A stretch of 52,422 nucleotides of DNA, taken from IMG/VR virus record IMGVR_UViG_3300025120_000076, positions 1 through 52,422 of that record; one strand, written 5' to 3'. The translations under genes were made by a program, and so were the position numbers. The notes beneath the pieces were generated by a model. That model searched no databases. It saw only the letters and a program-made list of their open reading frames with translations, and had not been told where the DNA came from. Origin of the DNA: a virus. Below are positions 1-51,662 of this stretch, one piece after another. Every line of letters begins with the position of its first letter. The stretch's first letter is position 1.

Positions 1-252
1 CGTAGCTTAATAGGTCAAAAGAAATATGGCGCTACAATGATGCAAGAGATTGAAGGTCAAAAGAAAGATCTTAATAGGTTTATGATAGACGTACAAGAAG
101 AATTGATGGATGCTATATTATACATTGAATCAGCTAGACACTGCTTAAGAGACGAAATAGAAGAAGCTATGTTAAACCGTATGAATATAGTAGGTCAAAA
201 TGGAAATGATGGTTTACATTATATAGAGGTCAATGATGAAGAAGTTTTATAA
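1..252 (+). CDS. C-terminal part of a MazG-like/phage nucleotide pyrophosphohydrolase-type protein (partial)
   Basis: The frame is open from the first base, so the gene begins before the window; the first internal Met codon is at 37, but the upstream residues (K-K-Y-G-A-T) look like part of the same protein. About 83 residues are visible. The pattern K-Y-G-x(n)-D-L, then E-E-L-M-D-A-I-L-Y-I-E, is what I know from small phage proteins related to MazG-type (d)NTP pyrophosphohydrolases, where the acidic E-E-L-x-D helix binds metal. The metal-binding set cannot be judged because the N terminus is missing. It overlaps the next gene by 20 bases, as in an operon, and lies upstream of the ribonucleotide reductase genes, which suits a nucleotide-pool role. 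The coding call is solid; the function is tentative. Confidence 0.6.
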   Translation, partial: RSLIGQKKYGATMMQEIEGQKKDLNRFMIDVQEELMDAILYIESARHCLRDEIEEAMLNRMNIVGQNGNDGLHYIEVNDEEVL

Positions 253-688
253 AAAGAAAAAACGAGGACCTGTACAATCAAAAAAAATTACATATGACAA
301 TATAACTTTTGCATCAGGTTTAGAGCGTTATATGTATATGGCTTTGAAAAAAGCTAAGATCAAAGCTTTGTATGAAGGAGAAACATTTGAGCTTCAGGAA
401 GCTTTTGATTTTCCATTTGAATCATTTGAGCGTTGTGGAAATGGTAAAGGTGATTATAAAAATAGAGGTAATAAAAAAATACTTAATATAAAATATACAC
501 CTGATTTTGTTGGTAAAGGTTTTATAATAGAAACTAAAGGCCGAGCAAATGAATCATTTCCACTTAGATGGAAAATGTTTAAAAAGCTATTGACAGAAAA
601 TAAAATAGCTCCATTAACTTTATATAAACCACAAAATCAAAAAGAATGCGACGAAACAATAAGGCTAATCCTAAACTCGCGAAAGTAA
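233..688 (+). CDS. PD-(D/E)XK nuclease, phage endonuclease I / DUF1064-like
   Basis: Protein of 151 residues with a very basic N terminus (residues 3-18). The core matches the DUF1064/T7 endonuclease I-like pattern: F-A-S-G-L-E (E31), an L-Q-x-x-F-x-F-P stretch (about 54-61), Y-T-P-D-F (D91), then I-I-E-T-K-G-R (E100 and K102). E31, D91, E100 and K102 are the expected PD-(D/E)XK active-site set. Such proteins resolve branched DNA or degrade host DNA. The first two codons are both ATG (233 or 236). It overlaps the preceding reading frame by 20 bases and the next small frame by 43. Family call is confident; the substrate is inferred. Confidence 0.8.
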   Translation: MMKKFYKKKKRGPVQSKKITYDNITFASGLERYMYMALKKAKIKALYEGETFELQEAFDFPFESFERCGNGKGDYKNRGNKKILNIKYTPDFVGKGFIIETKGRANESFPLRWKMFKKLLTENKIAPLTLYKPQNQKECDETIRLILNSRK

Positions 689-822
689 TTGCTAGACAAA
701 AATATGCCGAAAGACAAATAGATACTTGGTGGAAGTGGAGTTGGAATATAAGAAAAAAAGTACTATACAAAGAGCTTGTAGAAGTACAAAACAAATATGG
801 AATAAAAGTATATGGAAAATGA
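646..822 (+). CDS. Small basic protein of 58 residues, unknown
   Basis: A short frame starting inside the end of the nuclease gene (M-R-R-N-N-K-A-N-P) and ending T-G-A at 820-822. It is rich in Lys/Arg, with a Trp-rich centre (T-W-W-K-W-S-W) and a Tyr/Lys-rich tail (Y-G-I-K-V-Y-G-K). It fills what would otherwise be a gap between tightly packed genes, and its stop overlaps the start of the next small frame (812), typical of phage operons. I do not recognise a family. The call rests on packing and composition only. Confidence 0.5.
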   Translation: MRRNNKANPKLAKVIARQKYAERQIDTWWKWSWNIRKKVLYKELVEVQNKYGIKVYGK

Positions 823-958
823 AATAAAAAACTGGAGTTTATCTTTTGGTTTTTATCCCGGTATATTACTAGGAATAAGATCTTACAATGAAGACAAACA
901 AGACACACACGTGTTATATCTACCATTTATAGATATAGCCTTAGAAATATATAAATAA
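812..958 (+). CDS. Small conserved-looking 48-residue protein upstream of nrdB
   Basis: Reads M-E-N-E-I-K-N-W-S-L-S-F-G-F-Y-P-G-I, then L-G-I-R-S-Y, and ends P-F-I-D-I-A-L-E-I-Y-K. Its stop and the nrdB start share a base (TAATG at 956-960), a classic translational-coupling junction. I recall similar 45-60-residue proteins with W-S-x-x-x-G, G-x-R-x-Y and P-F-x-D blocks in marine phages, always of unknown function; this should be treated as recollection. The coupling to nrdB suggests co-expression with ribonucleotide reductase. Confidence 0.6.
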   Translation: MENEIKNWSLSFGFYPGILLGIRSYNEDKQDTHVLYLPFIDIALEIYK

Positions 959-1926
959 TGGGATTATTTGACGAAAGAATACCGTATAAACCTTTTGAGT
1001 ATCCTGAGTACTACACGGAGGGTTGGTTGAAGCAAGCTCAGGCGTTTTGGTTACACACAGAAATACCTATGTCAGGTGATGTTAAAGACTGGAACGAGAA
1101 ATTAAATGAATCAGAGAAAAACCTAGTAGGAAATATCTTACTAGGGTTTGCTCAAACCGAATGTGCTGTGTCTGACTACTGGACACAAAAAGTTGTTGGT
1201 TGGTTTCCTAAACACGAAATACAACAAATGGCTATGATGTTTGGTTCACAAGAAACTATTCACGCAGTAGCATATAGTTATTTAAATGAAACACTTGGAC
1301 TTGAAAATTTTGAAGCTTTCCTGCACGAGCCAGCTACTGCTGATCGGTTTGACAATCTTGTTGCGTATGATGGCAATGAATCAGTCGGTATCGGAAAGTC
1401 ATTGGCTATTTTTTCTGCCTTCGCAGAAGGAGTATCTCTTTATTCTGCTTTTGCAGTATTGTATTCTTTTCAATTGCGCAACCTCCTTAAAGGAGTAGGT
1501 CAGCAAATGAAATGGTCTGTAAGAGATGAATCATTACATAGTAAAATGGGTTGTAGATTATTTAATCATATGTGTGAAGAAGATCCTACGTTATTAAAAG
1601 AGTGTGAGGACGATGTATATTTAGCAGCTAAAACAATGGTTAGTTTAGAAGAAAAGTATATAGATAAAATGTTTGAAATGGGAGATCTTGAAAATCTAAA
1701 AGCAGACGACTTAAAACAATTTATAAGAAAAAGAACTAATGAAAAACTTATTGAACTTGGTTACACAGATAAAAGAAAACTTTTTAAGTATGACTCTAAC
1801 AGAGCAGATAATCTCGATTGGTTTTATCATCTTACCGGGGGCCACACTCATACTGATTTTTTCGCCATACGTCCGACAGACTATAGCAAAGCTAATGAAG
1901 GTGAAGACTTTGAAGACATCTGGTAA
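958..1926 (+). CDS. nrdB: Class I ribonucleotide reductase small (radical) subunit
   Basis: Protein of 322 residues, normal R2 length. The diiron ligands are all visible: E68 (F-A-Q-T-E), E99 and H102 (Q-E-T-I-H), E157 (F-A-E-G-V), E191 and H194 (R-D-E-S-L-H). Y106 sits four residues after H102, where the radical tyrosine of class Ia/Ib enzymes lies, so a tyrosyl radical is expected. The first ligand is Glu where E. coli has Asp84. The acidic aromatic tail (E-D-F-E-D-I-W) is the typical peptide that docks into NrdA. Together with NrdA (3384-5081) it reduces ribonucleoside diphosphates to deoxy forms for phage DNA synthesis. The start is fixed by a TAATG coupling with the preceding small gene. 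Confidence 0.97.
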   Translation: MGLFDERIPYKPFEYPEYYTEGWLKQAQAFWLHTEIPMSGDVKDWNEKLNESEKNLVGNILLGFAQTECAVSDYWTQKVVGWFPKHEIQQMAMMFGSQETIHAVAYSYLNETLGLENFEAFLHEPATADRFDNLVAYDGNESVGIGKSLAIFSAFAEGVSLYSAFAVLYSFQLRNLLKGVGQQMKWSVRDESLHSKMGCRLFNHMCEEDPTLLKECEDDVYLAAKTMVSLEEKYIDKMFEMGDLENLKADDLKQFIRKRTNEKLIELGYTDKRKLFKYDSNRADNLDWFYHLTGGHTHTDFFAIRPTDYSKANEGEDFEDIW

Positions 1927-2014
1927 AATAAACATAACAGAAGAAGATATATACAATGATCTTAATTGGAGCGGCATGAGAGACCTTGTAAAAGATAAAG
2001 AAGAACTAAAATAA
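1895..2014 (+). CDS. Small 39-residue protein overlapping the end of nrdB
   Basis: A frame that overlaps nrdB by 32 bases and ends five bases before the lipoprotein gene. It encodes M-K-V-K-T-L-K-T-S-G, then an acidic middle (I-T-E-E-D-I-Y-N-D-L-N-W) and a charged end (D-K-E-E-L-K). The same frame is open back to 1739 with a hydrophobic stretch, but that part lies entirely over nrdB codons and is probably a shadow, so I prefer the ATG at 1895. No family recognised. Confidence 0.45.
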   Translation: MKVKTLKTSGKINITEEDIYNDLNWSGMRDLVKDKEELK

Positions 2015-2019
2015 AATAT

Positions 2020-2436
2020 ATGAAAAAAATAATAATTATTGCGTTAACGTTTATACTTACGTCTTGTGGTAGTACTTATAATGTTTCTACTGATTATAGA
2101 ATTAAAAGTATATTAACAATAACAGAAAAAGGAGATACTTTAGCTGTACCAGTTAGAGATTTTAAATTTAGAGTACTTGATAGAAGAATAGAAGAAATAA
2201 TAAATCGTGAATCATTTAGGTATCAATACAGAGGTAATTGGCCAAACTGGAATTACAACTATTACACAATACCTTTTAATCAAGGATATAATAGATCAAA
2301 ACCTAATATTAAACCTAATATTAAACCAATTAATCCATCACCGCCCTCTATTAAACCTAACATGCCTATAAATACGCCTAGAGTTAAACCTATTTCAAAA
2401 CCCAATAACAAGAAAAATGATATACGTCAAAGATAA
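2020..2436 (+). CDS. Predicted phage-encoded lipoprotein with Pro/Lys/Asn-rich tail
   Basis: Of 138 residues, the first 15 form a short signal peptide (M-K-K, then I-I-I-I-A-L-T-F-I-L-T-S) followed by C16-G-S, a good lipobox for signal peptidase II and of the kind common in Bacteroidetes. The middle (20-75) is a mixed soluble stretch; residues about 75-135 are rich in Asn, Tyr, Pro and Lys, with tandem K-P-N-I units (about 95-105). The mature protein should be anchored in a membrane facing the periplasm or outside. Phage lipoproteins of this kind often block superinfection; that is inference from type and location. It overlaps the next gene by 20 bases. Confidence 0.75.
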   Translation: MKKIIIIALTFILTSCGSTYNVSTDYRIKSILTITEKGDTLAVPVRDFKFRVLDRRIEEIINRESFRYQYRGNWPNWNYNYYTIPFNQGYNRSKPNIKPNIKPINPSPPSIKPNMPINTPRVKPISKPNNKKNDIRQR

Positions 2437-2980
2437 TTTTTTACCTAAAAACTTATTTAATTCTTTAATTGAATACGCAGATAAGTTTAAGGAAGTTAAG
2501 TATCCAGATAAATCTTTTTGGGTTAAAGAATTACCAGATGAGTTTAATAAATATATAGTTAGTCAATTAGAAAAATTTGAAGGAAAAAAAATAAAAAATA
2601 TATTATCTTTTTTACGTGAAGCAAAGAAGGGTCAAGATAATGATTGGCGTATACATAATGATACTATAATAAATGGTCAACAACCTGATAGAGCTATAGT
2701 GTTTTTTGTAGATGCTGATGAAGAAGATATAAATGGAACTGCTTTATGGGAACATGTAGATTACGGCCATACTTATATTAAGTCTGATGACAATGAGTTT
2801 AATAGATTATTAAAGGAAGATTCAAACAATAAATTAAAATGGAAATTAAATTCAATAATAGGTTATAAGTCTAATAGACTATTGTCATATCCCTGTGAGT
2901 ATTTTCACAGCAAATATCCTAACGAATATACAAATAGAAGAATAGTTTTAGTAATGTTTTATAAATATGAAGGAAAGTAA
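2417..2980 (+). CDS. 2-oxoglutarate/Fe(II)-dependent oxygenase-like protein
   Basis: 187 residues. The N terminus (I-Y-V-K-D-N-F-L-P) is the usual opening of prolyl-hydroxylase-like phage oxygenases. A facial triad fits: H80-x-D82 (W-R-I-H-N-D-T) and H164 (E-Y-F-H-S), followed ten residues later by R174/R175 (N-R-R-I-V-L-V-M-F), where the 2-oxoglutarate carboxylate is normally bound. Such enzymes hydroxylate proteins or small molecules; the substrate cannot be told. Found in the + strand metabolic cluster between the lipoprotein gene and a small coiled-coil gene, overlapping both. Confidence 0.7.
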   Translation: MIYVKDNFLPKNLFNSLIEYADKFKEVKYPDKSFWVKELPDEFNKYIVSQLEKFEGKKIKNILSFLREAKKGQDNDWRIHNDTIINGQQPDRAIVFFVDADEEDINGTALWEHVDYGHTYIKSDDNEFNRLLKEDSNNKLKWKLNSIIGYKSNRLLSYPCEYFHSKYPNEYTNRRIVLVMFYKYEGK

Positions 2981-3194
2981 ATTATTAGAAATGAAAAATA
3001 AAGTTGAAGCTTTAACAAGAGTTGTTCAACATTTATTAAATGAAATAACCCAAGTAAAAGATCTAGCAATAGGTACATTAGAAACAATTAAAAAAATGCC
3101 TGATTATGAAGAAGCAATCAACGCACTTAAAAAGGATGTGGTTGAAAAACCTAGTGAAACAGAGAAAATTAAGCCCGACAGAAAGACTAGCTAA
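2967..3194 (+). CDS. Small 75-residue coiled-coil protein
   Basis: Starts 14 bases before the end of the oxygenase-like gene. Residues 1-55 are mostly helix-forming with heptad-like hydrophobic spacing (L-L-E-M-K-N-K-V-E-A-L, V-V-Q-H-L-L-N-E-I); the tail is Lys/Glu/Pro rich. No family recognised. It overlaps the following membrane protein frame, as is usual here. May be an accessory or regulatory partner of a neighbour; no function is visible. Confidence 0.55.
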   Translation: MKESKLLEMKNKVEALTRVVQHLLNEITQVKDLAIGTLETIKKMPDYEEAINALKKDVVEKPSETEKIKPDRKTS

Positions 3195-3384
3195 CAGGTT
3201 GGGATATATGGGCACTGCTTTCATGATGACAAGCCCACATCTACTGCCTGATGAAAGAGGTATGATTACATACATAATAGCTGGTATAATATCTATACCA
3301 CAAGTGTTTGTAGCAAAACAATGGAACTTAGTATTTGTTAATTTAAACGTAGCAATAGCCTACATAATATTATATTTTTCGTAA
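3106..3384 (+). CDS. Small membrane protein with two transmembrane segments
   Basis: A basic N terminus is followed by R-L-G-Y-M-G-T-A-F and two hydrophobic segments: I-T-Y-I-I-A-G-I-I-S-I-P-Q-V-F (about 54-68) and L-V-F-V-N-L-N-V-A-I-A-Y-I-I-L-Y-F (about 75-91). The start is uncertain: ATG at 3106, 3136 or 3208. The last would begin 14 bases after the previous stop but would lose R-L-G-Y, which looks part of the protein. The P-Q dipeptide in a membrane helix and the final Asn-rich helix recall half-transporters of the PnuC/SemiSWEET type, but the match is too short to claim. Its stop shares a base with the nrdA start. Confidence 0.55.
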   Translation: MKKQSTHLKRMWLKNLVKQRKLSPTERLANRLGYMGTAFMMTSPHLLPDERGMITYIIAGIISIPQVFVAKQWNLVFVNLNVAIAYIILYFS

Positions 3385-5081
3385 TGTGGAATAATGAATG
3401 GAAAAAAGGTATTGATTACCCTGAGTGGGGAGATACCGAAGTATATAAAAAAACAATATCAGGAGGATATTTATATCATGAAGAAACACCAAAACAAGCG
3501 TACGAAAGAGTTTCTAAAACAGTTGCGCGAAGATTACAAAAGCCTGAAATGGCAGAAACTTTTTTTGAATATATATGGAAAGGCTGGTTATGTCTTGCCT
3601 CGCCTGTTCTTAGCAATACTGGTACTGATAGGGGTTTGCCTATTAGTTGCTTTGGTATTGACGTCGCTGATTCTATATATGACATAGGAACTAAAAATTT
3701 AGAGATGATGCTACTCGCTAAACACGGCGGTGGAGTTGGTATCGGTATAAATCAAATAAGACCCGCCGGGGCAAACATAACAGGTAATGGAACAAGTGAT
3801 GGCGTTGTGCCGTTTTGTAAAATATACGATTCAACAATACTTGCCACTAATCAAGGATCTGTCAGACGAGGAGCTGCATCAGTTAATATTAATATTGATC
3901 ACGCCGATTTCGATGAGTGGCTCGAAATACGTGAACCCAAAGGAGACGTCAACCGTCAATCGCTTAACCTGCATCAATGCGCTGTTGTTGGCGATAAGTT
4001 TATGCGAAAGCTTGAACAAGGAAATGGAGAAGCTAGAAGACGTTGGGGACGACTACTTCAAAAGCGTAAAGCTACTGGAGAACCTTACATCTTATTTAAA
4101 GGGAATACAAATAAGAATAACCCAAAAGCATACAAAGATAATGGGTTAAAAGTACATATGACAAATATATGTTCTGAAATTACATTACACACAGATGAAT
4201 CACACAGTTTTGTTTGCTGTTTATCTAGTTTAAATTTAGCAAAATATGAAGAATGGAAAAACACTAATATCATTTATGATGCTATCTGGTTTTTGGATGG
4301 GGTACTTGAAGAATTTATCCAAAAAGCTAAAAGTAAAATTGGCTTTGGAAACTCCGTTAGATCAGCAGAAAAAGGCCGTGCGCTTGGGTTGGGAGTATTG
4401 GGCTGGCATACCTACCTCCAAGAAAAAGGATTACCATTTGAAGGGTTATCTTCCCAGTTTGAGACGCGCAGAATTTTTTCTCAGATTAAGATTGAGTCTG
4501 AACGCGCTTCAATGGATTTGGCAGAAATTTATGGAGAGCCTTTGTGGTGTGCTGGAACTGGCTTTCGCAATACTCACCTACGTGCTGTTGCTCCTACTGT
4601 TAGCAATAGTAAGCTCAGTGGAAATGTTTCGCCAGGTATTGAACCGTGGGCTGCGAATGTATTTACAGAGCAGAGTGCAAAGGGGACTTTTATTAGGAAA
4701 AACCCAACACTCGAAAAAGAATTAGAAAAACTTAAATTAAATACAAAAGAAATATGGGACAAAATTTTAGCAGACGGTGGTTCGGTTCAAAATATAAAAG
4801 GTTTAGAAGACTCTACGAAAGAAGTATTTAAAACATTTAAAGAACTTAATCAATTAGAATTAGTAAGACAAGCAGGTATAAGACAACAATATATAGATCA
4901 ATCTGTTAGTTTAAATTTAGCTTTCCCAAGTACAGCAACTCCTAAGTGGATTAATAAAGTACACTTCGATGCTTGGAAAAAAGGTATTAAAACTTTATAC
5001 TACGTTAGAACAGAATCTGTTTTGCGTGGCGACATAGCTGACCATGCCATGAGTGAAGACTGTGTTGCGTGTGATGGATAA
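3384..5081 (+). CDS. nrdA: Class I ribonucleotide reductase large (catalytic) subunit
   Basis: 565 residues. Catalytic elements are complete: C89 (P-I-S-C-F) and C278/C279 (redox pair), the N261-x-C263-x-E265 active-site triad (N-I-C-S-E), the radical-transfer tyrosines Y539-Y540 (L-Y-Y-V-R-T-E-S), and the C-terminal shuttle cysteines C560 and C563. It lacks the N-terminal ATP-cone of bacterial NrdA (about 750 residues), so overall-activity inhibition by dATP is probably absent, a common state in phages. It pairs with NrdB (958-1926), but six small or accessory genes lie between. The start overlaps the previous stop by one base. Last gene of the + strand block, followed by a terminator. Confidence 0.97.
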   Translation: MWNNEWKKGIDYPEWGDTEVYKKTISGGYLYHEETPKQAYERVSKTVARRLQKPEMAETFFEYIWKGWLCLASPVLSNTGTDRGLPISCFGIDVADSIYDIGTKNLEMMLLAKHGGGVGIGINQIRPAGANITGNGTSDGVVPFCKIYDSTILATNQGSVRRGAASVNINIDHADFDEWLEIREPKGDVNRQSLNLHQCAVVGDKFMRKLEQGNGEARRRWGRLLQKRKATGEPYILFKGNTNKNNPKAYKDNGLKVHMTNICSEITLHTDESHSFVCCLSSLNLAKYEEWKNTNIIYDAIWFLDGVLEEFIQKAKSKIGFGNSVRSAEKGRALGLGVLGWHTYLQEKGLPFEGLSSQFETRRIFSQIKIESERASMDLAEIYGEPLWCAGTGFRNTHLRAVAPTVSNSKLSGNVSPGIEPWAANVFTEQSAKGTFIRKNPTLEKELEKLKLNTKEIWDKILADGGSVQNIKGLEDSTKEVFKTFKELNQLELVRQAGIRQQYIDQSVSLNLAFPSTATPKWINKVHFDAWKKGIKTLYYVRTESVLRGDIADHAMSEDCVACDG

Positions 5082-5147: not shown

Positions 5148-5384
5148 TTATTTTGTTCCTTTTTTTCTACCTTTTCTTTCCTTACCTTTTAAAGCATCAT
5201 CAATATCACCTAATTGATTACCTACTTCTTTTATTGCTTTAGCAACGTCTTGTAATTCTTTACTAGTTAGCTTGTATCTTTTTTTAATTTCTTTAACAGT
5301 AGCTATAGCTTTTTCGTCTATGCTTGTTTTACTCCACAGTAAAACCCACACGTCTTTCCAATATTGTTTAGTTAGTTTCCACAT
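5148..5384 (-). CDS. Small charged 78-residue protein, last gene of the late block
   Basis: Starts M-W-K-L-T-K-Q-Y-W-K-D-V-W-V-L-L-W, followed by two charged helical stretches and a strongly basic end (K-G-K-E-R-K-G-R-K-K-G-T-K). The Trp-rich N terminus could be an amphipathic membrane-touching helix. The distal position after lysis and tag-protein genes and immediately before the terminator suggests a late product. I do not recognise a named family. Confidence 0.7.
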   Translation of the reverse strand: MWKLTKQYWKDVWVLLWSKTSIDEKAIATVKEIKKRYKLTSKELQDVAKAIKEVGNQLGDIDDALKGKERKGRKKGTK

Positions 5385-6514: not shown

Positions 6515-6940
6515 TTATATATTACAATACTCTTCATAAGCGTTAAAACACGGACAGCTTTTCGCTGAAAATTCGTTGTGCCCATGTATCGTTGCTTTTG
6601 GATGTAGTTTTTTTAATACTCTTAATAACTCTAATAAAGTTGCTATTTGATTAGGCGTTCTAGTATCTTTAGCTATCCAGTCTCCATCAGATCCTCTTTC
6701 AGCTTCAACTCCACCAATATAACAAATACCTATACTACCCTTATTGTGATTTTTTACATGAGCACCTGTTTCTGTTATAGGTCTACCATATTCTATCATA
6801 CCATCTAAACCTATTACGTAATGATAACCTATACCTCTCCACCCTCTTTTTTTATGCCATTTGTCTATAGTAGCTGCAGATATCTCTTTACCTTCTTGTG
6901 TGGCAGAACAGTGTATTATTATTTTATCTATTGCCCTCAT
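6515..6940 (-). CDS. Endolysin: N-acetylmuramoyl-L-alanine amidase, T7 lysozyme type
   Basis: 141 residues, close to T7 lysozyme (151). Zinc ligands match: H10 (I-I-I-H-C-S-A-T), H121 (H-G-H-N-E-F) and C129 (K-S-C-P-C-F); K127, two residues before C129, and Y41 (G-Y-H-Y-V-I) match the T7 catalytic Lys and Tyr. G-Y-H-Y-V-I-G-L-D-G and G-S-I-G-I-C-Y-I-G-G are family blocks. It cuts the amide bond between muramic acid and the peptide stem to lyse the cell. No signal peptide, so it needs a holin, which is encoded next to it. The start touches the end of the large virion gene. Confidence 0.95.
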   Translation of the reverse strand: MRAIDKIIIHCSATQEGKEISAATIDKWHKKRGWRGIGYHYVIGLDGMIEYGRPITETGAHVKNHNKGSIGICYIGGVEAERGSDGDWIAKDTRTPNQIATLLELLRVLKKLHPKATIHGHNEFSAKSCPCFNAYEEYCNI

Positions 6941-27927: not shown

Positions 27928-29154
27928 TTAGTTAAACTTTTTTGTTTTGATTTTTAATTTTGTTGAGTCTAATCCACTAATCGATTTTACTTTTAATCCA
28001 TTTATAAAAACATTTCCGTCTGCAACTTGCCTTGGGCCGTCTTTGGAGGGATTTTTGGAAGTGTTGATAACGTTTTTAACGCCATCAGCTTTTCCTTGTT
28101 CATAAAAATGATGAGCAATTTTATCAGCATTCATTGCAGCATACATAGCTTTATGATACCCAGCTGGATCTACAATTTGTCCTTCATCATTAGAATATCT
28201 ACTAATAAAGTTCTGTACATCTATTTGAGTCTCACCAACTTTAACAGGATCTTTTACTCCATATCTAAATTTTTTATCTCCTACATTGAAATCAAAACCT
28301 TTGAATTCTGAAGAAAATAATTTTTTAGTATTGTCTCTAAAGTCACCGTGTAATCTAGTTGCAGTTTCTTGTTGCAATTTATATTGGTCATAAAAACTTA
28401 ACGCTTCTTGCTGCTCTTGAGTTACACCCGGTCTCAACTTGATCTCGTCGTAATATTTTTTCTTAGAGCTTTCTAAAAATTGTTTTGCTTTTGCAACCTC
28501 TTCTTTATAAGCAAGTTTTTTCTTTCGAATATCTCTTGCCTCGTCCACATCTTCGTCAAAGTTAAAATTATCTTCTAATAAAAAATTAATTTCATCTAAT
28601 TCTAAATGTGGTTTAGTTTTTTTGTAAAATTCATGGAGTAATTGAGCACTGTCTAATTTTTCATAATCTTTATTTAAAGTTACGTAATCTTCTACAGAGC
28701 CACCAGTTTCTTCCATGAATGAAACTAGTTTTTCAATATTTTCTGGTAAAGGTTTTCCAAGAATTTTTTCATCTCTTACAGCTTTTTTAACCTCTTGTTT
28801 TATTTCTTTTACCTCTTCTTCTGTTATTTCTTGGAGTGGGCTTTCTTGATTTTTATCATCTTCGCTGGACTGCTGTATTTGTTCGTCCACTTTAATGCTA
28901 TCTCCGGCTTGTTTGCCCACAGCCACTTCTGTTGTTTCTCCGATTTGAATGGCATCTTCTTCTTGTTTTAATGCTTCTTTAGGAACTTCAACCTTTACAA
29001 CATCTGGAACTACTTCTCCAGTTGCTTCTGGTTTAGTTAAATCAACTTTAGTTATTTTATCTACTTTTTTACCTAATTGTCTAGGTTTAGTTTTTTTAGC
29101 TTTTAAACTAAAATCACCTTCTTGCTTTACAGCTTCTTGTGTTTGTTCTGACAT
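27928..29154 (-). CDS. Probable scaffolding protein
   Basis: 408 residues, strongly charged. Residues 1-150 are low-complexity and acidic (many Glu, Lys, Val, Gln); 180-280 are predicted helices (L-L-H-E-F-Y-K-K-T-K, A-K-Q-F-L-E-S-S-K-K-K-Y-Y); the end is basic (L-K-I-K-T-K-K-F-N), the part that in other phages contacts the coat protein. It lies between portal and major capsid genes, the classic scaffold position. No protease motif is seen here. Confidence 0.75.
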   Translation of the reverse strand: MSEQTQEAVKQEGDFSLKAKKTKPRQLGKKVDKITKVDLTKPEATGEVVPDVVKVEVPKEALKQEEDAIQIGETTEVAVGKQAGDSIKVDEQIQQSSEDDKNQESPLQEITEEEVKEIKQEVKKAVRDEKILGKPLPENIEKLVSFMEETGGSVEDYVTLNKDYEKLDSAQLLHEFYKKTKPHLELDEINFLLEDNFNFDEDVDEARDIRKKKLAYKEEVAKAKQFLESSKKKYYDEIKLRPGVTQEQQEALSFYDQYKLQQETATRLHGDFRDNTKKLFSSEFKGFDFNVGDKKFRYGVKDPVKVGETQIDVQNFISRYSNDEGQIVDPAGYHKAMYAAMNADKIAHHFYEQGKADGVKNVINTSKNPSKDGPRQVADGNVFINGLKVKSISGLDSTKLKIKTKKFN

Positions 29155-29185
29155 AATATAATATAATTTAGTGTTTACTTAAAAA

Positions 29186-31561
29186 TTAAATAAGAGATTG
29201 TTGCTGTTCAAAATCAATAGGCAATAAATCATTTTGTCTTTGATCTATCATTTGACTTTGTTGACTACCTTCCATTTTAATTCTTTTATCTTTACGATTT
29301 TCAATTTCTTGTTCTTTAACCGTACGTTTATTAATATCTAATTCAGCTAGTTGTCTATCGTATTCAAACTGCTGAGACATTAAATGTTTTTTACCTTCTA
29401 ATTCAACCTGCATTCTCTGTATTTCAAATTGAGATTTAGCATTTTCTAGATTAACCTTTTGCTCTGTTATTGCTTGTTGTTTTTGAACTTCAGCTAAAGC
29501 AGCTTGTTCATTTTGTTGAGCATTGGCCTGCGCTTGCGCTTGTATGTTAGCCCTAGCATTATTTGCTTCTCTAGCTAATTTTTGTTTACGCTTTTGTTTT
29601 AATAATTGATTTGCTAATTTAAGATTTTTTATTTGCCTAACATCTATAGCATCTTCTAAATCTATACCTCCTGACTGTAAAGCTACTTGTATGTTTTGTT
29701 CTAGCTGAGCTTTAGCTTCATCATCTGGTTCTAATTCTAAAAATATTCCAAAATCATGTAGGTTTAAATAACTAACTTCTTTTAAAGTTTCAACATTATA
29801 CAATGATATACTTTCTATTAAACTATTTGCTGTTAGTGGAAAATCTAAAACATCTGCTAACTTTAAAGATATGTTTTCACATACACGTAAAGCTAAATAT
29901 AAACTAGCGTTATTTATGTGTTTAGTAGCTATGTTTGATTGATTAGCCGCCATTTTAGCTAAACCTACTAAAGCATCTTTATCAGGCAAGCTACCATCTC
30001 TAGCTTCATTTAATCCGGTCACATCTCTTATCATTTGTAAATAATATTGATAAGTTTGTATTAAAGCTCCTAGCTTAGCTCCTGACGCTGATGTTTGTAG
30101 TTCTTGAATAGGGATTCTTCCTCTATTAGGATCACCTTCTTGTGTCAACGATCTACCAACAATACTACCTGTTTGAAAATACATGTTTAATGCTTCGGCT
30201 GGATTATAGTTTGTGCCATTACCAAGATCAACTTCTGCTAATCCGTCCATGTCTAAAAATACTCCATCAGGTACCATGCGTGATAATACTTGTTGCATTT
30301 TTAAATGCGTAATTTGTATCATATCAGCAAAACCAGTACATCTACTGACTATAGATTCTATTCTTCCTTTGTACATTCTTGGCGCTACAATAGTATAGTT
30401 CATTTCAACTTTGGTAGTATCAGCATATGGCCTAGTCATGTTTTCAGCTAACTCCCATTTTAAAATTGTATTAGTTCCTAAAACTTTAGCGCCACTATAT
30501 AAAACTTCTATACTTCTTCCTACCTTATCGTAGGTGTCTGATGGTGGAGGATTAAACTCATCAGTTTTTTGAATTATTTTTTCTAATCCATTTTCTGTTT
30601 TCTTTAACTTAAATACTTGGTTCATGTAAGTTTTATATTCAAAATATAATACTTGAACTGTATTGTTATCATAATTTCCCCAACCAGTTATATATTGTCT
30701 GTTACCTGGCATTTCCTGTATTCTCTGTAATTCTTCATTAGAAATATCTGGAAATTGCTTTTTAAGCTCAGGTATAGTTATTGATTTAACTTCTCCAACA
30801 TAATATATATCTTCAAAGTTAGGATCTTCTGTATAAGAATATATTAAATAAGCTGGATCTACATAATCTAATGTTATGCCATTTGCTTTATTAAAGTTAG
30901 TTTTGGCACAAGCTATTCCACATACTACTAAATCATGATTTAATCTTCTTTTAGTTAATTCCCATTTGTTTTGAGATAACGTTTGAGATATAGCTTCCTC
31001 TTCAGCTATTTCAACAGCTTGCTTATATGATAATTGCATGTGAAGCTCTAAGTCTTCTTTTGTTTTAGGTAACTCATCTTGCGGAACATTAGACTGAGAC
31101 ATATTTATACCTAATTGTTGTTGAGCTTTTTGTATTTGAGCTGAGGCAAACATATCTCTAGCCACATTAGTAGCGTATTGAGTTCTTTCTTTTACTGACT
31201 CAGGATCTTGAGAATACGCTTTAATATCATACTCTTTACTTGAAATACCATTAACTACTATATCAACAAATTTTGATAATATAGGGACAGGTTTCCAGTC
31301 TAAGTTTAAATAGCTTAAGTCACCATTAATAGATAATTCATCTTTATATTTTTGAACAGGTTGTTCTCCTCTAGCGTATAAACGTAGATGATGATAATTA
31401 TTCCAGCTTGTTAAATATCGGTTACCGTTAGTTCTACCTTGATTAAACCATTCTGTCTCAATAGCTGATGCTACTTGTGAACCATATTCCCAGGAAGCTT
31501 TTTCTGCATCCGGTACTACCTGACTCGGAAAAGCGCTATTAGAGTTTGTGTATAAATTCAT
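29186..31561 (-). CDS. Portal protein (crAss-like)
   Basis: 791 residues, typical for crAss-like portals. N-terminal half is mixed alpha/beta (Y-L-N-L-D-W-K-P-V-P-I-L-S-K-F-V-D-I-V-V-N-G-I is a good portal wing motif), the centre has D-V-T-G-L-N-E-A-R-D-G-S and the following helices, and the C-terminal 150 residues are a long Gln/Ala/Lys-rich coiled coil (A-N-A-Q-Q-N-E-Q-A-A-L-A-E-V-Q-K-Q), the helical barrel seen in large podovirus portals. Adjacent to TerL (same-base junction), so the packaging motor is encoded as a unit. Confidence 0.9.
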   Translation of the reverse strand: MNLYTNSNSAFPSQVVPDAEKASWEYGSQVASAIETEWFNQGRTNGNRYLTSWNNYHHLRLYARGEQPVQKYKDELSINGDLSYLNLDWKPVPILSKFVDIVVNGISSKEYDIKAYSQDPESVKERTQYATNVARDMFASAQIQKAQQQLGINMSQSNVPQDELPKTKEDLELHMQLSYKQAVEIAEEEAISQTLSQNKWELTKRRLNHDLVVCGIACAKTNFNKANGITLDYVDPAYLIYSYTEDPNFEDIYYVGEVKSITIPELKKQFPDISNEELQRIQEMPGNRQYITGWGNYDNNTVQVLYFEYKTYMNQVFKLKKTENGLEKIIQKTDEFNPPPSDTYDKVGRSIEVLYSGAKVLGTNTILKWELAENMTRPYADTTKVEMNYTIVAPRMYKGRIESIVSRCTGFADMIQITHLKMQQVLSRMVPDGVFLDMDGLAEVDLGNGTNYNPAEALNMYFQTGSIVGRSLTQEGDPNRGRIPIQELQTSASGAKLGALIQTYQYYLQMIRDVTGLNEARDGSLPDKDALVGLAKMAANQSNIATKHINNASLYLALRVCENISLKLADVLDFPLTANSLIESISLYNVETLKEVSYLNLHDFGIFLELEPDDEAKAQLEQNIQVALQSGGIDLEDAIDVRQIKNLKLANQLLKQKRKQKLAREANNARANIQAQAQANAQQNEQAALAEVQKQQAITEQKVNLENAKSQFEIQRMQVELEGKKHLMSQQFEYDRQLAELDINKRTVKEQEIENRKDKRIKMEGSQQSQMIDQRQNDLLPIDFEQQQSLI

Positions 31562-33769
31562 TTATTCAATTATTTTTGACAATGTACCTTTATTGTTATA
31601 TTTTTTTATTCCTATATCAAAAACTTGTCTTGTAGTTTTAGCTATGGGTCTATATTTGTTTTTATTGCAAGCCATTATAGCTAAGCCAGAACTAATAGAA
31701 GCATCATGACTTGTTCTGTTATTTATGTTAAATTTAGCCCAATCTTCTAATGTTCTTTGAAGATACATTTGACCATACTCTCCATTACTTTTTATTCCAA
31801 TAAAATCTTCAATATAAGATTCTATAGCGGCAGCGTGAGCTTGTTTAATATCTTCACTTGAATTAGGTATTCCACCTATTTCTCTTTCAGTTACAGATAG
31901 TTTTATTTTATCCGGCCGGTTCATTGCAAAACCTCTATAGCCTCTTCTTTTAAAATGATATAATAATCTTGGCTTATTATTTTCAGCTAATATAGGCATG
32001 CTATAAAAAATACAAGCCATTAAAACATCTTCAAAAAATATTTCAGCAGTTTGTGGTCTAGCTATATATTCTAAGAAAAAATGATTTGCTGGCGCATTTT
32101 CCATGCTAAACTTTGTTAGCCCGTGTAGAGAACCTTTTGATCCTCTTTTATCTACTGTTCCTGATATATCATAACTATCACACCCGAAAGCACCTATATG
32201 TTCATTAGCAGGATATTTTAATCCTCTTTTTATTACAATATTATTTTGTAGGTTAAGAGGTGGTGTCCAGGTGATAAAAAATCTTCCTTTGTTATGAGGA
32301 ACAAATATAACTTTAGTATCTTTTATTCCGTTTTCCCAATGAAAATTTCCTTGTGTAACTAAATTACTATTTCTTAAATCTCCGTTCCAGTCTATTTGCT
32401 CGTATATTTTTGTTAAATTAAAAAGAGAGGCTTTTGCCTCATCTCTAAAAGCATGTTCTTCAGTTCTTGGAAATTGTCTATAAAATTCATTTAATGCATC
32501 TTGATCTGTTTTTAAACCATCAACTTCATTTTGCCAATAGTCTATAACACCTAATTTTATCTGCGTGCCATGAGCATCTGTTGTTTTTTTATTTGGAGTG
32601 TCGAATACAGGTACTCCATGAGAATCAATGTATCCCTCGTAGTTCCATTCCATAGGTATGAACAAACTATATAATCCCGAGCGAGTCTGTCCGTTGGCGT
32701 TTCTATTTGTGACATCTGAATCATAATATAATTTTTTAAAATTATCACCTCCTTTATCTAATGAATTTGAGGTTGATCCCATCATACACTTTCCAATTAT
32801 TCTACTACCTAATCTAAGTGTAGTTTTTGTAACCCTCCAGTTATTTTGAATATTATTAGGTCTTTCCCATTTACCACTTTCATCGTGTACTAAAAGCTTA
32901 AGTTTTTCTCCATCATAAGAGTTGTCGCCTGTATTTTTCCAATCGATTGTTGTGTCAAGTCCTTCAAGCTCAGCTGCTGTTTCATTAGAGTCGAGCTTTC
33001 TACGGGTAAATTTAGATGCTGGTACTCTGTAAGCAAGCTCAGTCTTGGGGCGATCCATACCGTCTTGTATTGGTTTGAAAAAAAACGGGTAGTTAACTGA
33101 TATTGGTACGACCTTATCGGTAAACATTGTTTTTGCATCTGGTCCAGATTTTGATAATATACCATATCTTGAGTCTGAATTAATGGTTGCGAGATTAACA
33201 ACCTCTCCTGAGGCCATAAATGAAAATCCTGATCTACGGTTTTTAAGGTAGCACATTCCATAGCTTCTGTAGTCTGCTTTGCAAGCTTCCCAGAAAATAT
33301 AGAATAATCTATTTGCTTCTCTAAAATCTGGTTTCCCAACATCAATCTTGGACCACTGCAAGTACATATAGTGAGTACCAGTAATGTAAGTAGCCACGTT
33401 TTTATTATAGAACCAAAAACCTTGTTCTCTTCGAAGAAATTCTTTATCAATGTAATCATACCAGTGTTCTTTAAAGTCAACCGGATATTTCTCCCAATCA
33501 AATCTCGTTTTTATTTTTTTTAATTCTTCAGGTATAATAGATCTATGCCATGCATTTTTTTCAAACTTAACTACATTATCTTTTTTTGGCAGAGCTATTT
33601 TTAGATTTTGTATTTCGTATATTTCACCTATCTCACCTGTTCTACTAATTATAATTATATCATATTTATCATTATAACCGTACTCCCACTTTTTATTTCT
33701 ATTGTTTCTTTTTAATATATTAGAATCAATGTAATTTTCTAAAACTTTATATAAGTTTTGCTTATACAT
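31562..33769 (-). CDS. terL: Terminase large subunit (TerL)
   Basis: 735 residues. ATPase: a Walker A-like region at about 176-184 (K-N-R-R-S-G-F-S-F) and Walker B L-L-V-H-D296-E297; the coupling motif is G-S-T-S-N (331-335). Nuclease: G-C-D529-S-Y-D532-I-S is the first acidic motif. The Walker A loop is atypical (R-R-S-G-F-S rather than G-x-G-K-S/T), with no Lys directly before Ser. TerL pumps DNA into the head and cuts concatemers. The gene overlaps the small gene upstream by one base and is immediately followed by portal. Confidence 0.93.
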   Translation of the reverse strand: MYKQNLYKVLENYIDSNILKRNNRNKKWEYGYNDKYDIIIISRTGEIGEIYEIQNLKIALPKKDNVVKFEKNAWHRSIIPEELKKIKTRFDWEKYPVDFKEHWYDYIDKEFLRREQGFWFYNKNVATYITGTHYMYLQWSKIDVGKPDFREANRLFYIFWEACKADYRSYGMCYLKNRRSGFSFMASGEVVNLATINSDSRYGILSKSGPDAKTMFTDKVVPISVNYPFFFKPIQDGMDRPKTELAYRVPASKFTRRKLDSNETAAELEGLDTTIDWKNTGDNSYDGEKLKLLVHDESGKWERPNNIQNNWRVTKTTLRLGSRIIGKCMMGSTSNSLDKGGDNFKKLYYDSDVTNRNANGQTRSGLYSLFIPMEWNYEGYIDSHGVPVFDTPNKKTTDAHGTQIKLGVIDYWQNEVDGLKTDQDALNEFYRQFPRTEEHAFRDEAKASLFNLTKIYEQIDWNGDLRNSNLVTQGNFHWENGIKDTKVIFVPHNKGRFFITWTPPLNLQNNIVIKRGLKYPANEHIGAFGCDSYDISGTVDKRGSKGSLHGLTKFSMENAPANHFFLEYIARPQTAEIFFEDVLMACIFYSMPILAENNKPRLLYHFKRRGYRGFAMNRPDKIKLSVTEREIGGIPNSSEDIKQAHAAAIESYIEDFIGIKSNGEYGQMYLQRTLEDWAKFNINNRTSHDASISSGLAIMACNKNKYRPIAKTTRQVFDIGIKKYNNKGTLSKIIE

Positions 33770-34041
33770 TATTTAGATCTTGTTTCTGCAAAACCTTTAA
33801 AACTTTTTTCTTTTGTTTCTTTTGGTTTTTCATTTATAATATTTTCTTCCTCTTGTATTTTTTGTAAAATTTCAAAGGCATCAAATATAGCTAATTTTTT
33901 TGTTGCAGCTGCGTTTTTTAATCTATCCGCTGATATATCTTCTGCTGTATCTACAATAGGTTCTTTAGCCACCTTTATTAATTCCTCAACTGCTATTTGC
34001 CCAGCTTGGATTATATTCTTCTTGGTTTTCTTTATTTCCAT
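33769..34041 (-). CDS. Small helical protein upstream of TerL, terminase small subunit candidate
   Basis: 90 residues: M-E-I-K-K-T-K-K-N-I-I-Q-A-G, V-E-E-L-I-K-V-A-K-E-P, then A-D-R-L-K-N-A-A-A-T-K-K-L-A-I-F-D-A-F-E-I-L-Q-K-I and a charged tail ending F-K-G-F-A-E-T-R-S-K. All helical. Its stop shares a base with the TerL start, the place where TerS is normally encoded. I recall near-identical small proteins in marine podoviruses. A classic helix-turn-helix is not obvious, so the TerS role is inferred. Confidence 0.65.
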   Translation of the reverse strand: MEIKKTKKNIIQAGQIAVEELIKVAKEPIVDTAEDISADRLKNAAATKKLAIFDAFEILQKIQEEENIINEKPKETKEKSFKGFAETRSK

Positions 34042-34591
34042 ATTTAATTACAATATCATTAGATTTCATACAGTATAATCTTTCATCGTTTATAATAAAA
34101 TCATACTCTCCATAAGGTGTGTATCCTACAACGTCTCCCTCACTCACACCCGCAGCTTCTAAGAAGCTATTACCTATTTTTAATACACCAATAAGCTTTT
34201 GTTCTTTATTTATATTAAAATCATTTTTTGATTTTAAAGGTTTTACAAAACATCTATTGTTTATTGACTTAAAATCTTCTTTATTTTTATATAAATATAT
34301 TTGATCTAAAGAACAGAAATATAAATCTTCTTTAAACCAAGATCTACTTTTTTTCTTATTACCTCTTATATCATAAAAAGTTCTAAATACATTATGATGT
34401 ATAACTATAATATCACCAACTTTAATTGGGGTGTTGTATGCTATAGGTGTTTTAACTACAACAGCTAGATTATTAACAAATTTAAAATTTTCTATTTTAG
34501 TATTTAAAATTAATTTTATCCCACCTATTGTTATATCATTAGAATACTCTTTACCTAAAGGTTTTACAACAAAATCATATATTGACCTCAT
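33986..34591 (-). CDS. Tandem GroES-like (co-chaperonin-fold) protein
   Basis: 201 residues that read as two GroES-like halves. Half 1 (about 4-102): F-V-V-K-P-L, N-N-L-A-V-V-V-K-T-P, I-K-V-G-D-I-I-V, and D-Q-I-Y-L-Y at the end. Half 2 (about 112-185): C-F-V-K-P-L, L-I-G-V-L-K-I-G-N, V-S-E-G-D-V-V-G-Y-T-P, R-L-Y-C-M-K-S-N-D-I-V-I-K-Y. These follow the GroES plan (V-K-P-L start, G-x-V segment, G-D-x-V loop, final D-I-V strand), but each half lacks an obvious Gly-Gly-hydrophobic mobile loop like the separate GroES (41006-41269). It lies next to the packaging genes and overlaps the small gene downstream by 56 bases. May act as an assembly co-chaperone; function inferred. Confidence 0.65.
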   Translation of the reverse strand: MRSIYDFVVKPLGKEYSNDITIGGIKLILNTKIENFKFVNNLAVVVKTPIAYNTPIKVGDIIVIHHNVFRTFYDIRGNKKKSRSWFKEDLYFCSLDQIYLYKNKEDFKSINNRCFVKPLKSKNDFNINKEQKLIGVLKIGNSFLEAAGVSEGDVVGYTPYGEYDFIINDERLYCMKSNDIVIKYGNKENQEEYNPSWANSS

Positions 34592-42851: not shown

Positions 42852-43142
42852 TTACTTAAAGGTCTTAACGACTTGTGGTCCGCGAATATAAGAAAGCTTT
42901 TTCTCATAGTGGTTAATGGAAGCATCTATTGCTTGTTCAGCTCCTTCCATTGTTTCGCGTCTCGTTACATCGATCCAAGAATCTTCTTGTTTTGGATCAA
43001 GGTATTCAGTTTGGTAGAATCCGTTTGGTAGTTGTACAATTCTCCAGTTTTTCTTTTGAATTATATGCTCCCATACTTTTTTGGTCTCTTCCGTTATTTG
43101 TGGTTGACTACTCCACGAACTAGTCTGGTAATATAGTGTCAT
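42852..43142 (-). CDS. Small protein of 96 residues between tail and chaperonin genes
   Basis: M-T-L-Y-Y-Q-T-S-S-W-S-S-Q-P-Q, then T-K-K-V-W-E-H-I-I-Q-K-K-N-W-R-I-V-Q-L-P-N-G-F-Y-Q-T-E-Y and a helical C-terminal third (E-Q-A-I-D-A-S-I-N-H-Y-E-K-K). The W-R-I-V-x-L-P-N-G-x-Y-Q-T-E block looks conserved across marine phages from memory. No function known to me. Upstream leader of 88 bases has small hairpins. Confidence 0.65.
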   Translation of the reverse strand: MTLYYQTSSWSSQPQITEETKKVWEHIIQKKNWRIVQLPNGFYQTEYLDPKQEDSWIDVTRRETMEGAEQAIDASINHYEKKLSYIRGPQVVKTFK

Positions 43143-43203
43143 CGGTTTTGGTTTTTAAATTTGACATTGGTTATTGCTCTCACCGAGCAGGTATGTTTTT
43201 ATT

Positions 43204-50116: not shown

Positions 50117-50677
50117 TTATGTAAAGTTTACAATTCTATATAGAATGTTTAGTTTAATAGGTGAGTTACCTTGTGATACTGTAGTGCCGGATGTTGCTGT
50201 TAAAGTGAAAGCTGTGTTTGGTTCGTAAACCATCTCATCATTGTTAGGGAAATCAAAAACAGTATATCTATCTTGTGTAATGTTTAATTCTGTTGAAGGG
50301 TTAAGAGTATGAAAAGTGCTTACTGCTCCTAATTTAAAAGCGATAACATCGCTTAAACCAGTGGTTGCAAAATTATATACAGTACCTCCATAGTCTAAAA
50401 ACATTGCCATGTTTAATATTGATATTAATTGTCCGGCACCTGCAGCAGGTATAAGGTCTATTACTCCACCTCCGTTTAATGCTAGCATGTCAGACGCTGA
50501 AAGTGTAATTTCTTTTAGTTTTAAAATACTATTATCTACGGAAAATGAAGCTACATCAGTTATACTGAAGTTTCTAGTAACTGGAAGATCATCCGAGTTA
50601 GCTTTTGGAACAACTGTACCGAGTAACATATCGTCTGCCTTTGGCGTTCCTTTAGGGTAACTTTGGATTATTGACAT
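50117..50677 (-). CDS. Tail-fibre-type protein, first gene of the - strand block
   Basis: 186 residues. M-S-I-I-Q-S-Y-P-K-G-T-P-K-A-D-D-M-L-L-G-T, then V-T-R-N-F-S-I-T, is the adaptor-like N terminus shared with the 49429-50115 protein. Later strands (L-T-L-S-A-S-D-M-L-A-L-N-G-G type, I-T-Q-D-R-Y-T-V-F-D-F-P) and a conserved-looking C terminus (I-K-L-N-I-L-Y-R-I). Being the first gene downstream of the divergent control region, it should be under the main late promoter. Confidence 0.75.
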   Translation of the reverse strand: MSIIQSYPKGTPKADDMLLGTVVPKANSDDLPVTRNFSITDVASFSVDNSILKLKEITLSASDMLALNGGGVIDLIPAAGAGQLISILNMAMFLDYGGTVYNFATTGLSDVIAFKLGAVSTFHTLNPSTELNITQDRYTVFDFPNNDEMVYEPNTAFTLTATSGTTVSQGNSPIKLNILYRIVNFT

Positions 50678-50828
50678 CTGTTAGTGTGTGTGTTAGTTTT
50701 AGTGTATTATTTATATCTTATATACTCACATATAATAAGGCGTTTTTACATAGCTTGTGACAATAGGTACTTACTTACTTATATTATAAGGCTAGTGTCA
50801 AAGTTTTTAAGTGTAGAGACGTGTAGTG

Positions 50829-50857
50829 TTGCCACTCTTTTCTCTGCACTATCTTTG
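50829..50857 (+). promoter_or_regulatory. Candidate Bacteroidetes-type promoter (TTG - 18 - TATCTTTG)
   Basis: TATCTTTG (50850-50857) fits the Bacteroidetes -7 consensus TAnnTTTG. A TTG (50829-50831) lies 18 bases upstream, near the place of the -33 TTTG element (usual spacing 19-21). It points to the + strand small genes that start at 51275. A weak, purely motif-based call. Confidence 0.3.
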
Positions 50858-51065
50858 TATAGGAAAACCACTTTGTTTTGACCGGGTTCCCCATGCTTTA
50901 CCTCGCTCAACCGTGACGTTTCGAATTTTCCATGCACGACCTTAAAAGCTTAGCACTTTGTTTACAGAACTACTACGTAGATGATTAGATAATTTACATG
51001 TAAGTTCATTCACATACTGTCTCACTACTCGCTTCGCTACTATAATATAATATATAATAGCAATA

Positions 51066-51172
51066 TGACAACTTGTCACTACATATATGACTGATTGTCA
51101 TGACATTATGTCACAGTTATAATACATATATACTATGACACTATGACACTTCGCGGTATGACACTATGACAT
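51066..51172. repeat. Array of TGACA/TGTCA motifs with two 16-base tandem units
   Basis: Nine TGACA or TGTCA pentamers occur in 107 bases: TGACA at 51066, 51101, 51136, 51144, 51159 and 51167; TGTCA at 51074, 51096 and 51109. TGTCATGACA at 51096-51105 is a perfect palindrome. TATGACACTATGACAC (51134-51149) and TATGACACTATGACAT (51157-51172) are near-identical 16-base units made of two 8-base repeats, separated by TTCGCGG (period 23). Iteron- or operator-like; more copies flank it (51620, 51657). Confidence 0.75.
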
Positions 51173-51274
51173 ATTTAATAAGTAAACTAAATTACATACT
51201 TAAACAAACTAAATACGTAACGAACTAGATAATATAAATGTAACTAAATAATAATAATAATTAAAATTAAAACT

Positions 51275-51499
51275 ATGCAATTAAATTCTAAAAGATTTGT
51301 CATCAGACAATCACTAATCGGAAAAAATCAAACAATCAATGTAACTTTCAAAAATGGTAAAACATACACTTACAATCACGATAAAGTGTGGGAAATTATG
51401 AAAGATAAATTATCAGAAATGAATTGTTTTATTAAGTACAAATCTTACACTTCATCAACTAGTGTACCAGTAGTACTAAGAGATAAAGAGGTAGTATAA
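51275..51499 (+). CDS. Small 74-residue protein, first gene of the + strand small-gene block
   Basis: M-Q-L-N-S-K-R-F-V-I-R-Q-S-L-I-G-K-N-Q-T-I-N-V-T-F-K-N-G-like start: a beta-hairpin-like stretch ending N-G-K-T-Y-T-Y, then a helix (K-V-W-E-I-M-K-D-K-L-S-E-M) and a final S-Y-T-S-S-T-S-V-P-V-V-L-R-D. Preceded by an A-rich leader ending AAAACT just before the ATG. Probably an early phage protein; unknown function. Confidence 0.65.
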   Translation: MQLNSKRFVIRQSLIGKNQTINVTFKNGKTYTYNHDKVWEIMKDKLSEMNCFIKYKSYTSSTSVPVVLRDKEVV

Positions 51500-51619: not shown

Positions 51620-51662
51620 TGTCATTATGGTACAAGAGTGTGTTCGATTCACACTATGACAA
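51620..51662 (+). other. tRNA-like T-arm/acceptor minihelix, not a complete tRNA
   Basis: GTGTG-TTCGATT-CACAC (51638-51654) is a perfect five-base T-stem with a canonical seven-base T-loop. The next seven bases, TATGACA (51655-51661), pair at six of seven positions with TGTCATT (51620-51626), giving acceptor-like pairing; A62 would be the discriminator. Only 11 bases (with a GG) link the two, so there is no room for D and anticodon arms. The outer stem is also a TGTCA/TGACA inverted repeat like the 51066-51172 array. Could be a tRNA relic, an attachment-site remnant, an RNA structure or an operator. Confidence 0.3.

Follow-up and report, generated by a model that had tools for sequence, protein, structure and literature searches.

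The region between the leftward and rightward gene blocks of the viral record IMGVR_UViG_3300025120_000076 holds an array of short repeated boxes, which has a regular unit structure, is conserved at a fixed position in many relatives and keeps set distances to the same promoter motif. The array is very likely a protein-binding control site, a prediction based on a cluster of one word upstream of the first putative early promoter and on its recurrence, with fixed layout, in roughly half of the relatives. The chances are about even that it serves as a multi-site operator for this promoter (P2) in a lineage of podoviruses. The preliminary description had proposed an iteron-type origin or a multi-site operator; the operator has gained from the constant position and the apparent helical phase of the array to the promoter motif, the origin has been weakened, and a multi-site operator now fits better than a replication origin.

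The window, i.e., the whole stretch of DNA analysed, is a complete IMG/VR virus record of 52,422 bases. It is classed as linear and is therefore probably a fragment; larger related records have about 60–72 kb. Genes run rightward at 37–5081, leftward at 5148–50677, and rightward again from 51275. In relatives, the rightward block encodes primase-helicase, Erf annealing protein, exonuclease, ligase, and ribonucleotide reductase, as well as a sigma-factor-like protein and a 204-aa HTH protein. Judged by this gene content, the rightward block would be early and the leftward block late. The terminase (TerL) is closest to that of MW202828 from Manatee Spring (62.8%), the nearest published relative, followed by Flavobacterium Elemovirus (43%) and Cellulophaga Callevirus (36%). 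By sequence, the lineage belongs to environmental podoviruses related to Elemovirus and Callevirus, and the hosts of its closest isolates are Flavobacterium and Cellulophaga. A crAss-like identity was dropped because of these nearest TerL neighbors, a gut crAss-like phage giving only a weak match; it is also unsupported by the 2,469-aa protein, which has no PHROG match. The features referred to below are:

50117–50677, minus strand: first gene of the leftward (putatively late) block, 186 aa.
50758–50800, minus strand: 43-bp palindromic element TGACA-N33-TGTCA, before the leftward block; in relatives at G005 6890–6932 (plus strand) and 67810–67852 (minus strand), and in loci L137–L216 at the start of the HTH gene.
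50961–51005, plus strand: P1 (TTTACAGAACTACTACG...GATAATTTACATGT), the promoter-like motif in a second copy that lies upstream of the array.
51066–51171, no strand assigned: array of five 13-bp units TGACA-N3-TGWCA, with nine exact TGACA/TGTCA boxes and one TGACT.
51066–51078, no strand assigned: unit 1, TGACAACTTGTCA, convergent pair.
51088–51100, no strand assigned: unit 2, TGACTGATTGTCA, convergent pair with one mismatch, abutting unit 3.
51101–51113, no strand assigned: unit 3, TGACATTATGTCA, convergent pair.
51114–51135, no strand assigned: AT-rich spacer of 22 nt between units 3 and 4.
51136–51148, plus strand: unit 4, TGACACTATGACA, direct pair.
51159–51171, plus strand: unit 5, TGACACTATGACA, direct pair, ending 56 bp before the GATAAT of P2.
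51204–51241, plus strand: P2, early-promoter-like motif (ACAAACTAAATACGTAAC...GATAATATAAATGT), with GATAAT at 51228–51233; repeated motifs of this kind in relatives at G012 28418–34333 and G021 55817–61358.
51275–51499, plus strand: first early gene, coding for a 74-aa protein of no assigned function, the anchor for finding relatives.
51620–51661, plus strand: anticodon-less tRNA-like element of about 42 nt; also at G005 68681 and 69239, in G009, G040, G045, L134, and others.

All nine TGACA/TGTCA copies claimed to lie here far above chance are present within 106 bases, with TGACA at 51066, 51101, 51136, 51144, 51159, and 51167, and TGTCA at 51074, 51096, and 51109. The boxes are not independent; they are grouped as units starting at 51066, 51088 (one mismatch), 51101, 51136, and 51159, and TGWCA is identical on both strands except for its central base. 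The perfect palindrome described earlier is found at 51096–51105 (TGTCATGACA), and the tandem units said to be 23 bases apart do have this spacing (51134, 51157), the repeat TATGACACTATGACA having 15 bases instead of 16. The placement between leftward and rightward genes likewise agrees with the block borders at 50677 and 51275. Units 2 and 3 together form a conserved 26-mer core. The spacer between units 3 and 4 keeps its length and AT-richness in most layouts and does not keep its sequence; the AT-rich spacer is reduced in L036, L125, and L128, and the entire surrounding region is AT-rich.

Over the whole window, TGACA/TGTCA occurs 90 times compared to a mean of 101 in dinucleotide shuffles, the enrichment being local to the array and not global, and the second-densest 107-base stretch of the record has 3 copies. 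The Poisson expectation of nine copies anywhere in the record is about 2e-10, before correction for about 512 possible 5-mers. In simulations with a first-order Markov model, trained on the intergenic region with the array included, none of 20,000 sequences reached nine copies (maximum 4). The array thus holds a binding-site-like word clustered beyond chance. Other copies at 51298 and 51685 fall in coding sequence or a start codon.

Lack of conservation in close relatives had been named beforehand as a point that would count against the proposal, and the array recurs with a fixed layout in many independent contigs. Among 46 loci fetched with the first early protein, 12 have 7–9 boxes in a 110-base stretch upstream of the gene, the others none or few. 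A search with the 26-mer core retrieved 17 viral contigs plus a 6.6-kb contig (L134) that had been assigned to a gammaproteobacterial MAG. In 84 related records, the exact unit hardly occurs outside the array, a reversed control pattern being near zero. Box counts are bimodal: of 33 large related records, 17 contain 6–9 boxes within about 120 bases, the remaining 16 contain no more than 4, and none has 5. A first set of 18 records was scanned for intergenic word clusters. The array ranks first in all array-bearing genomes but G021, whose array misses the cut-off, and in most of them it is the only significant cluster; the array-free genomes of this set have no significant intergenic k-mer cluster. 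Two main layouts of unit spacing exist, 22–23/13/34–36/21–23, which is that of the window, and 13/23/14–16/19–21. Box pairs 8 bp apart (n = 78) are direct in 60 and convergent in 18 cases, and never divergent.

The distribution of the array is patchy and not monophyletic in the TerL, portal or primase trees. Each tree needs at least two label changes, so the array was gained or lost more than once; the early region of the lineage is mosaic. Among isolates, TGACA-type arrays are missing from the examined parts of MW202828 and elemoF, and from phi38:1. The idea that array-free relatives carry an array of a different motif at the same place was rejected, the genome-wide scan having given nothing significant. 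Single array-free records have repeats of their own at this site, e.g., L032 with a weak repeat of ATCAT type and L044 with a repeat of AACGTG. A repeated CTGATCATATCAT, statistically weak, occurs in the matching array-free intergenic region upstream of the first early gene in L032 and L049. A dense ACGCG repeat tract without TGACA boxes lies in an intergenic region near the strand switch in L115 (31030–31190; MW202828 about 43,030–43,190).

The array is always upstream of the same promoter motif. This motif, ACAAACTAAATACGA-N10-GATAATATAAATGT, precedes many rightward genes, is nearly restricted to the early strand, and differs from the usual Bacteroidota promoter; its conservation suggests that the GATAAT motif is a promoter. 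Copies of the P1 type upstream of the array are also found in the close relatives L012 and L014. Between the last unit's end and GATAAT lie 35, 45/46, 55/56, or 78 bp in 27 of 27 arrays measured, a constant position relative to the putative promoter. The four distance classes fit a ladder of about 10.5 bp, and 0.9% of random four-distance draws are equally regular. Such a ladder is suggestive of helical phasing of the array to the promoter motif and falls short of proof, since the arrays are homologous and the distance classes are only four. A conserved hairpin-like sequence, GTAGTGTTGCCAC / GGGGTATAGTGTTGCCCCC, lies between the 43-bp element and the early promoters at about 50825–50840 of the window and at the same place in relatives.

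The 43-bp element before the late block reads TGACAnTAGCC...ATAAGTAA...GGCTAnTGTCA. In relatives, a further copy overlaps the start codon of the 204-aa HTH gene, which lies beside the sigma-like gene, and most near-complete records have exactly two copies (late block and HTH gene), with or without the array. At 76 of 79 HTH loci the element is 42–44 bp long with TGACA-like and TGTC ends, many having imperfect inner arms. TGACA-N17-ATAAGT inside the element looks like a -35/-10 pair, and the element as a whole resembles a shared promoter-operator in a regulatory switch. Since TGACA forms its outer arm at both the late block and the HTH gene, these two sites and the array may all be targets of a regulator recognizing a GACA core, and the word common to array and element may point to one regulator. 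Against one shared binder, some 43-bp elements have GGACA arms where array boxes keep TGACA (L043, G021).

An accessory multi-site operator is the best fit to the constant promoter-motif distance, the paired boxes, and the absence from half of the relatives. In such an operator, a protein would bind TGWCA boxes cooperatively, in pairs spaced by 8 bp, and the five units would hold several dimers on a defined helix face about 35–80 bp upstream of GATAAT. The bound array would then repress or activate early rightward transcription in the early-to-late switch. Both the binding of a protein and its control of transcription are what we infer from these patterns, and repression of early genes would be our guess for the sign. 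The promoter motif occurs without the array in about half of the relatives, so early transcription in the lineage cannot depend on the array. The array might be an optional, exchangeable control module, bound by a host-encoded regulator, or else by a regulator common to the phages and active at the 43-bp TGACA element of the late and HTH-sigma promoters as well, a proposal we offer tentatively and with more doubt than confidence.

A search for the binder revealed no family present in all array-bearing and absent from all array-free records (17 vs. 16), and a gene exclusive to array-bearing genomes was rejected as binder in comparisons of 7 v 11 and 17 v 16 records. The best association was that of a 45-aa family present in 9 of 17 array-bearing and 0 of 16 array-free records. 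As no protein family tracks the array, the binder would be a phage protein that the array-free relatives share, or a host protein; HTH and sigma-like proteins are present in both groups alike. A 44-aa early protein, ranked first among families within 4 kb, was rejected as an Arc-like RHH binder: its AlphaFold2 model is a beta-hairpin with two helices, a Foldseek search gave no match, and the protein is absent from the array-bearing G040, G058, and G065. The 204-aa HTH protein was rejected as well, its recognition helix not varying with the array and its structure model being poor and without significant structural match. RHH families are missing among the 25 best Pfam families matched by 38 early proteins of G005. 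As for the first early protein itself, that of the window has no Pfam match at 0.01. Over about 40 residues, its G005 orthologue matches Enterotoxin_b below threshold (19.4 bits against a cut-off of 25), and a similarly named PHROG is matched weakly over a similar length; this is probably chance or a common small fold and no evidence for a toxin.

Several known systems resemble the array. MetJ-type operators consist of near-palindromic 8-bp boxes with 8-bp pitch, used in pairs, and share this pitch and pairing with the array, which differs in sequence, extends over several pairs in 106 bp, and comes with no MetJ homologue seen. Lambda OR/OL is a multi-operator early switch. Phage 186 pR-pL is another (PMC7498355). 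Both are like the array in having several sites at a divergent early switch with apparent helical phasing, and differ from it in that the array has no recognized repressor gene beside it and is optional in the lineage, for which no sign of lysogeny was found. The RHH omega/ParB operators of plasmid pSM19035 have 7-bp WATCACW repeats in 7–10 contiguous heptads overlapping promoters; direct and inverted repeats alike are high-affinity sites for two dimers (PMC9499535). Like the array, they are tandem short boxes, direct or convergent, at promoters, and the direct-or-convergent rule of the array is formally that of omega operators; all 78 pairs have the 7–8 bp pitch and the orientations of an RHH-type operator. 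The array differs in its 5-bp near-palindromes, 8-bp pitch, and separated pairs, and no RHH protein was found among the best Pfam matches of the early proteins. Our claim is that the array works like a multi-site operator, and membership in the RHH family is not asserted.

Direct and convergent repeats also resemble the parS arrays of RHH-ParB proteins that overlap promoters (PMC9499535). A role as partition (parS-like) or packaging site is nevertheless highly improbable, given that arrays are tied to the promoter motif by a fixed distance and that no ParA or RHH family appears among the best matches of the scanned early proteins. Binding of a regulator or nucleoid protein encoded by the host, with the array acting as host-dependent switch or as decoy titrating a host factor, would explain why no phage gene family follows the array and why its presence is patchy in all three trees, as expected if it followed the host. 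This is a doubtful explanation, as no array-bearing contig has an assigned host, no host operator of the array form was found, and L134, the sole match in a bacterial genome, carries phage early genes.

Iteron origins, e.g., lambda ori (O protein) and P4 ori, combine several short repeats with an AT-rich segment. The array likewise has several short units regularly spaced in a fixed layout, and the AT-rich 22-nt spacer of the main layout might correspond to such a segment. In an origin of this kind, an initiator would bind the units, the spacer would melt, and the primase-helicase would be loaded. The primase tree groups the array-bearing genomes with good support and only two exceptions, and the array lies at the strand switch where GC skew turns. 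Even so, we regard an origin as unlikely. Half of the relatives that share the replication genes lack the array (16 of 33 records), no replication gene separates the two groups, and no substitute cluster exists in those array-free genomes that were scanned. No initiator family was recognized for the 38 early proteins of G005 (PHROGs and Pfam, best 25 families each), and array units are of mixed orientation, unlike classical iterons. The skew check suggested by the preliminary description did find a turn at the strand switch, but the skew minimum of array-free genomes is near the same switch, so the turn is not specific to the array, and in the array-bearing G021 the minimum is about 2.3 kb beyond it. 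As GC skew is fully confounded with gene direction, it cannot discriminate an origin and was set aside as evidence for one.

The tRNA-like element is a finding separate from the array. The further copies noted at 51620 and 51657 are present in the sequence and belong to this element, not to the array: 51620–51624 and 51657–51661 form opposite sides of an acceptor-like stem of 7 nt with 6 pairs. A short GG-containing linker, a canonical T-arm at 51638–51654 with loop TTCGATT, and an ACTA tail complete the element, which is found after the same gene in most relatives. Covariation is strong in both stems across about 30 relatives. In 19 distinct sequences, pairing holds for 97.6% of cells, and 68 cells are double-changed vs. 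20 from shuffles (0 of 500 reach 68); pairing collapses in slid controls. No Rfam family matches at the curated cut-off, and ARAGORN makes no call. The element is possibly a minimal substrate of RNase P or tRNase Z for cutting early mRNA, which is a guess.

How transcription is controlled in these environmental podoviruses is poorly known. If the array is the optional module proposed above, some members of the lineage add a layer of early-transcription control that close relatives do without, and the array-bearing and array-free relatives offer a natural comparison. A sharply defined, portable array with constant promoter-motif distance is a direct handle for probe and spacing tests. The array and the 43-bp element of the late and HTH-sigma promoters would jointly outline a complete and testable early/late switch.
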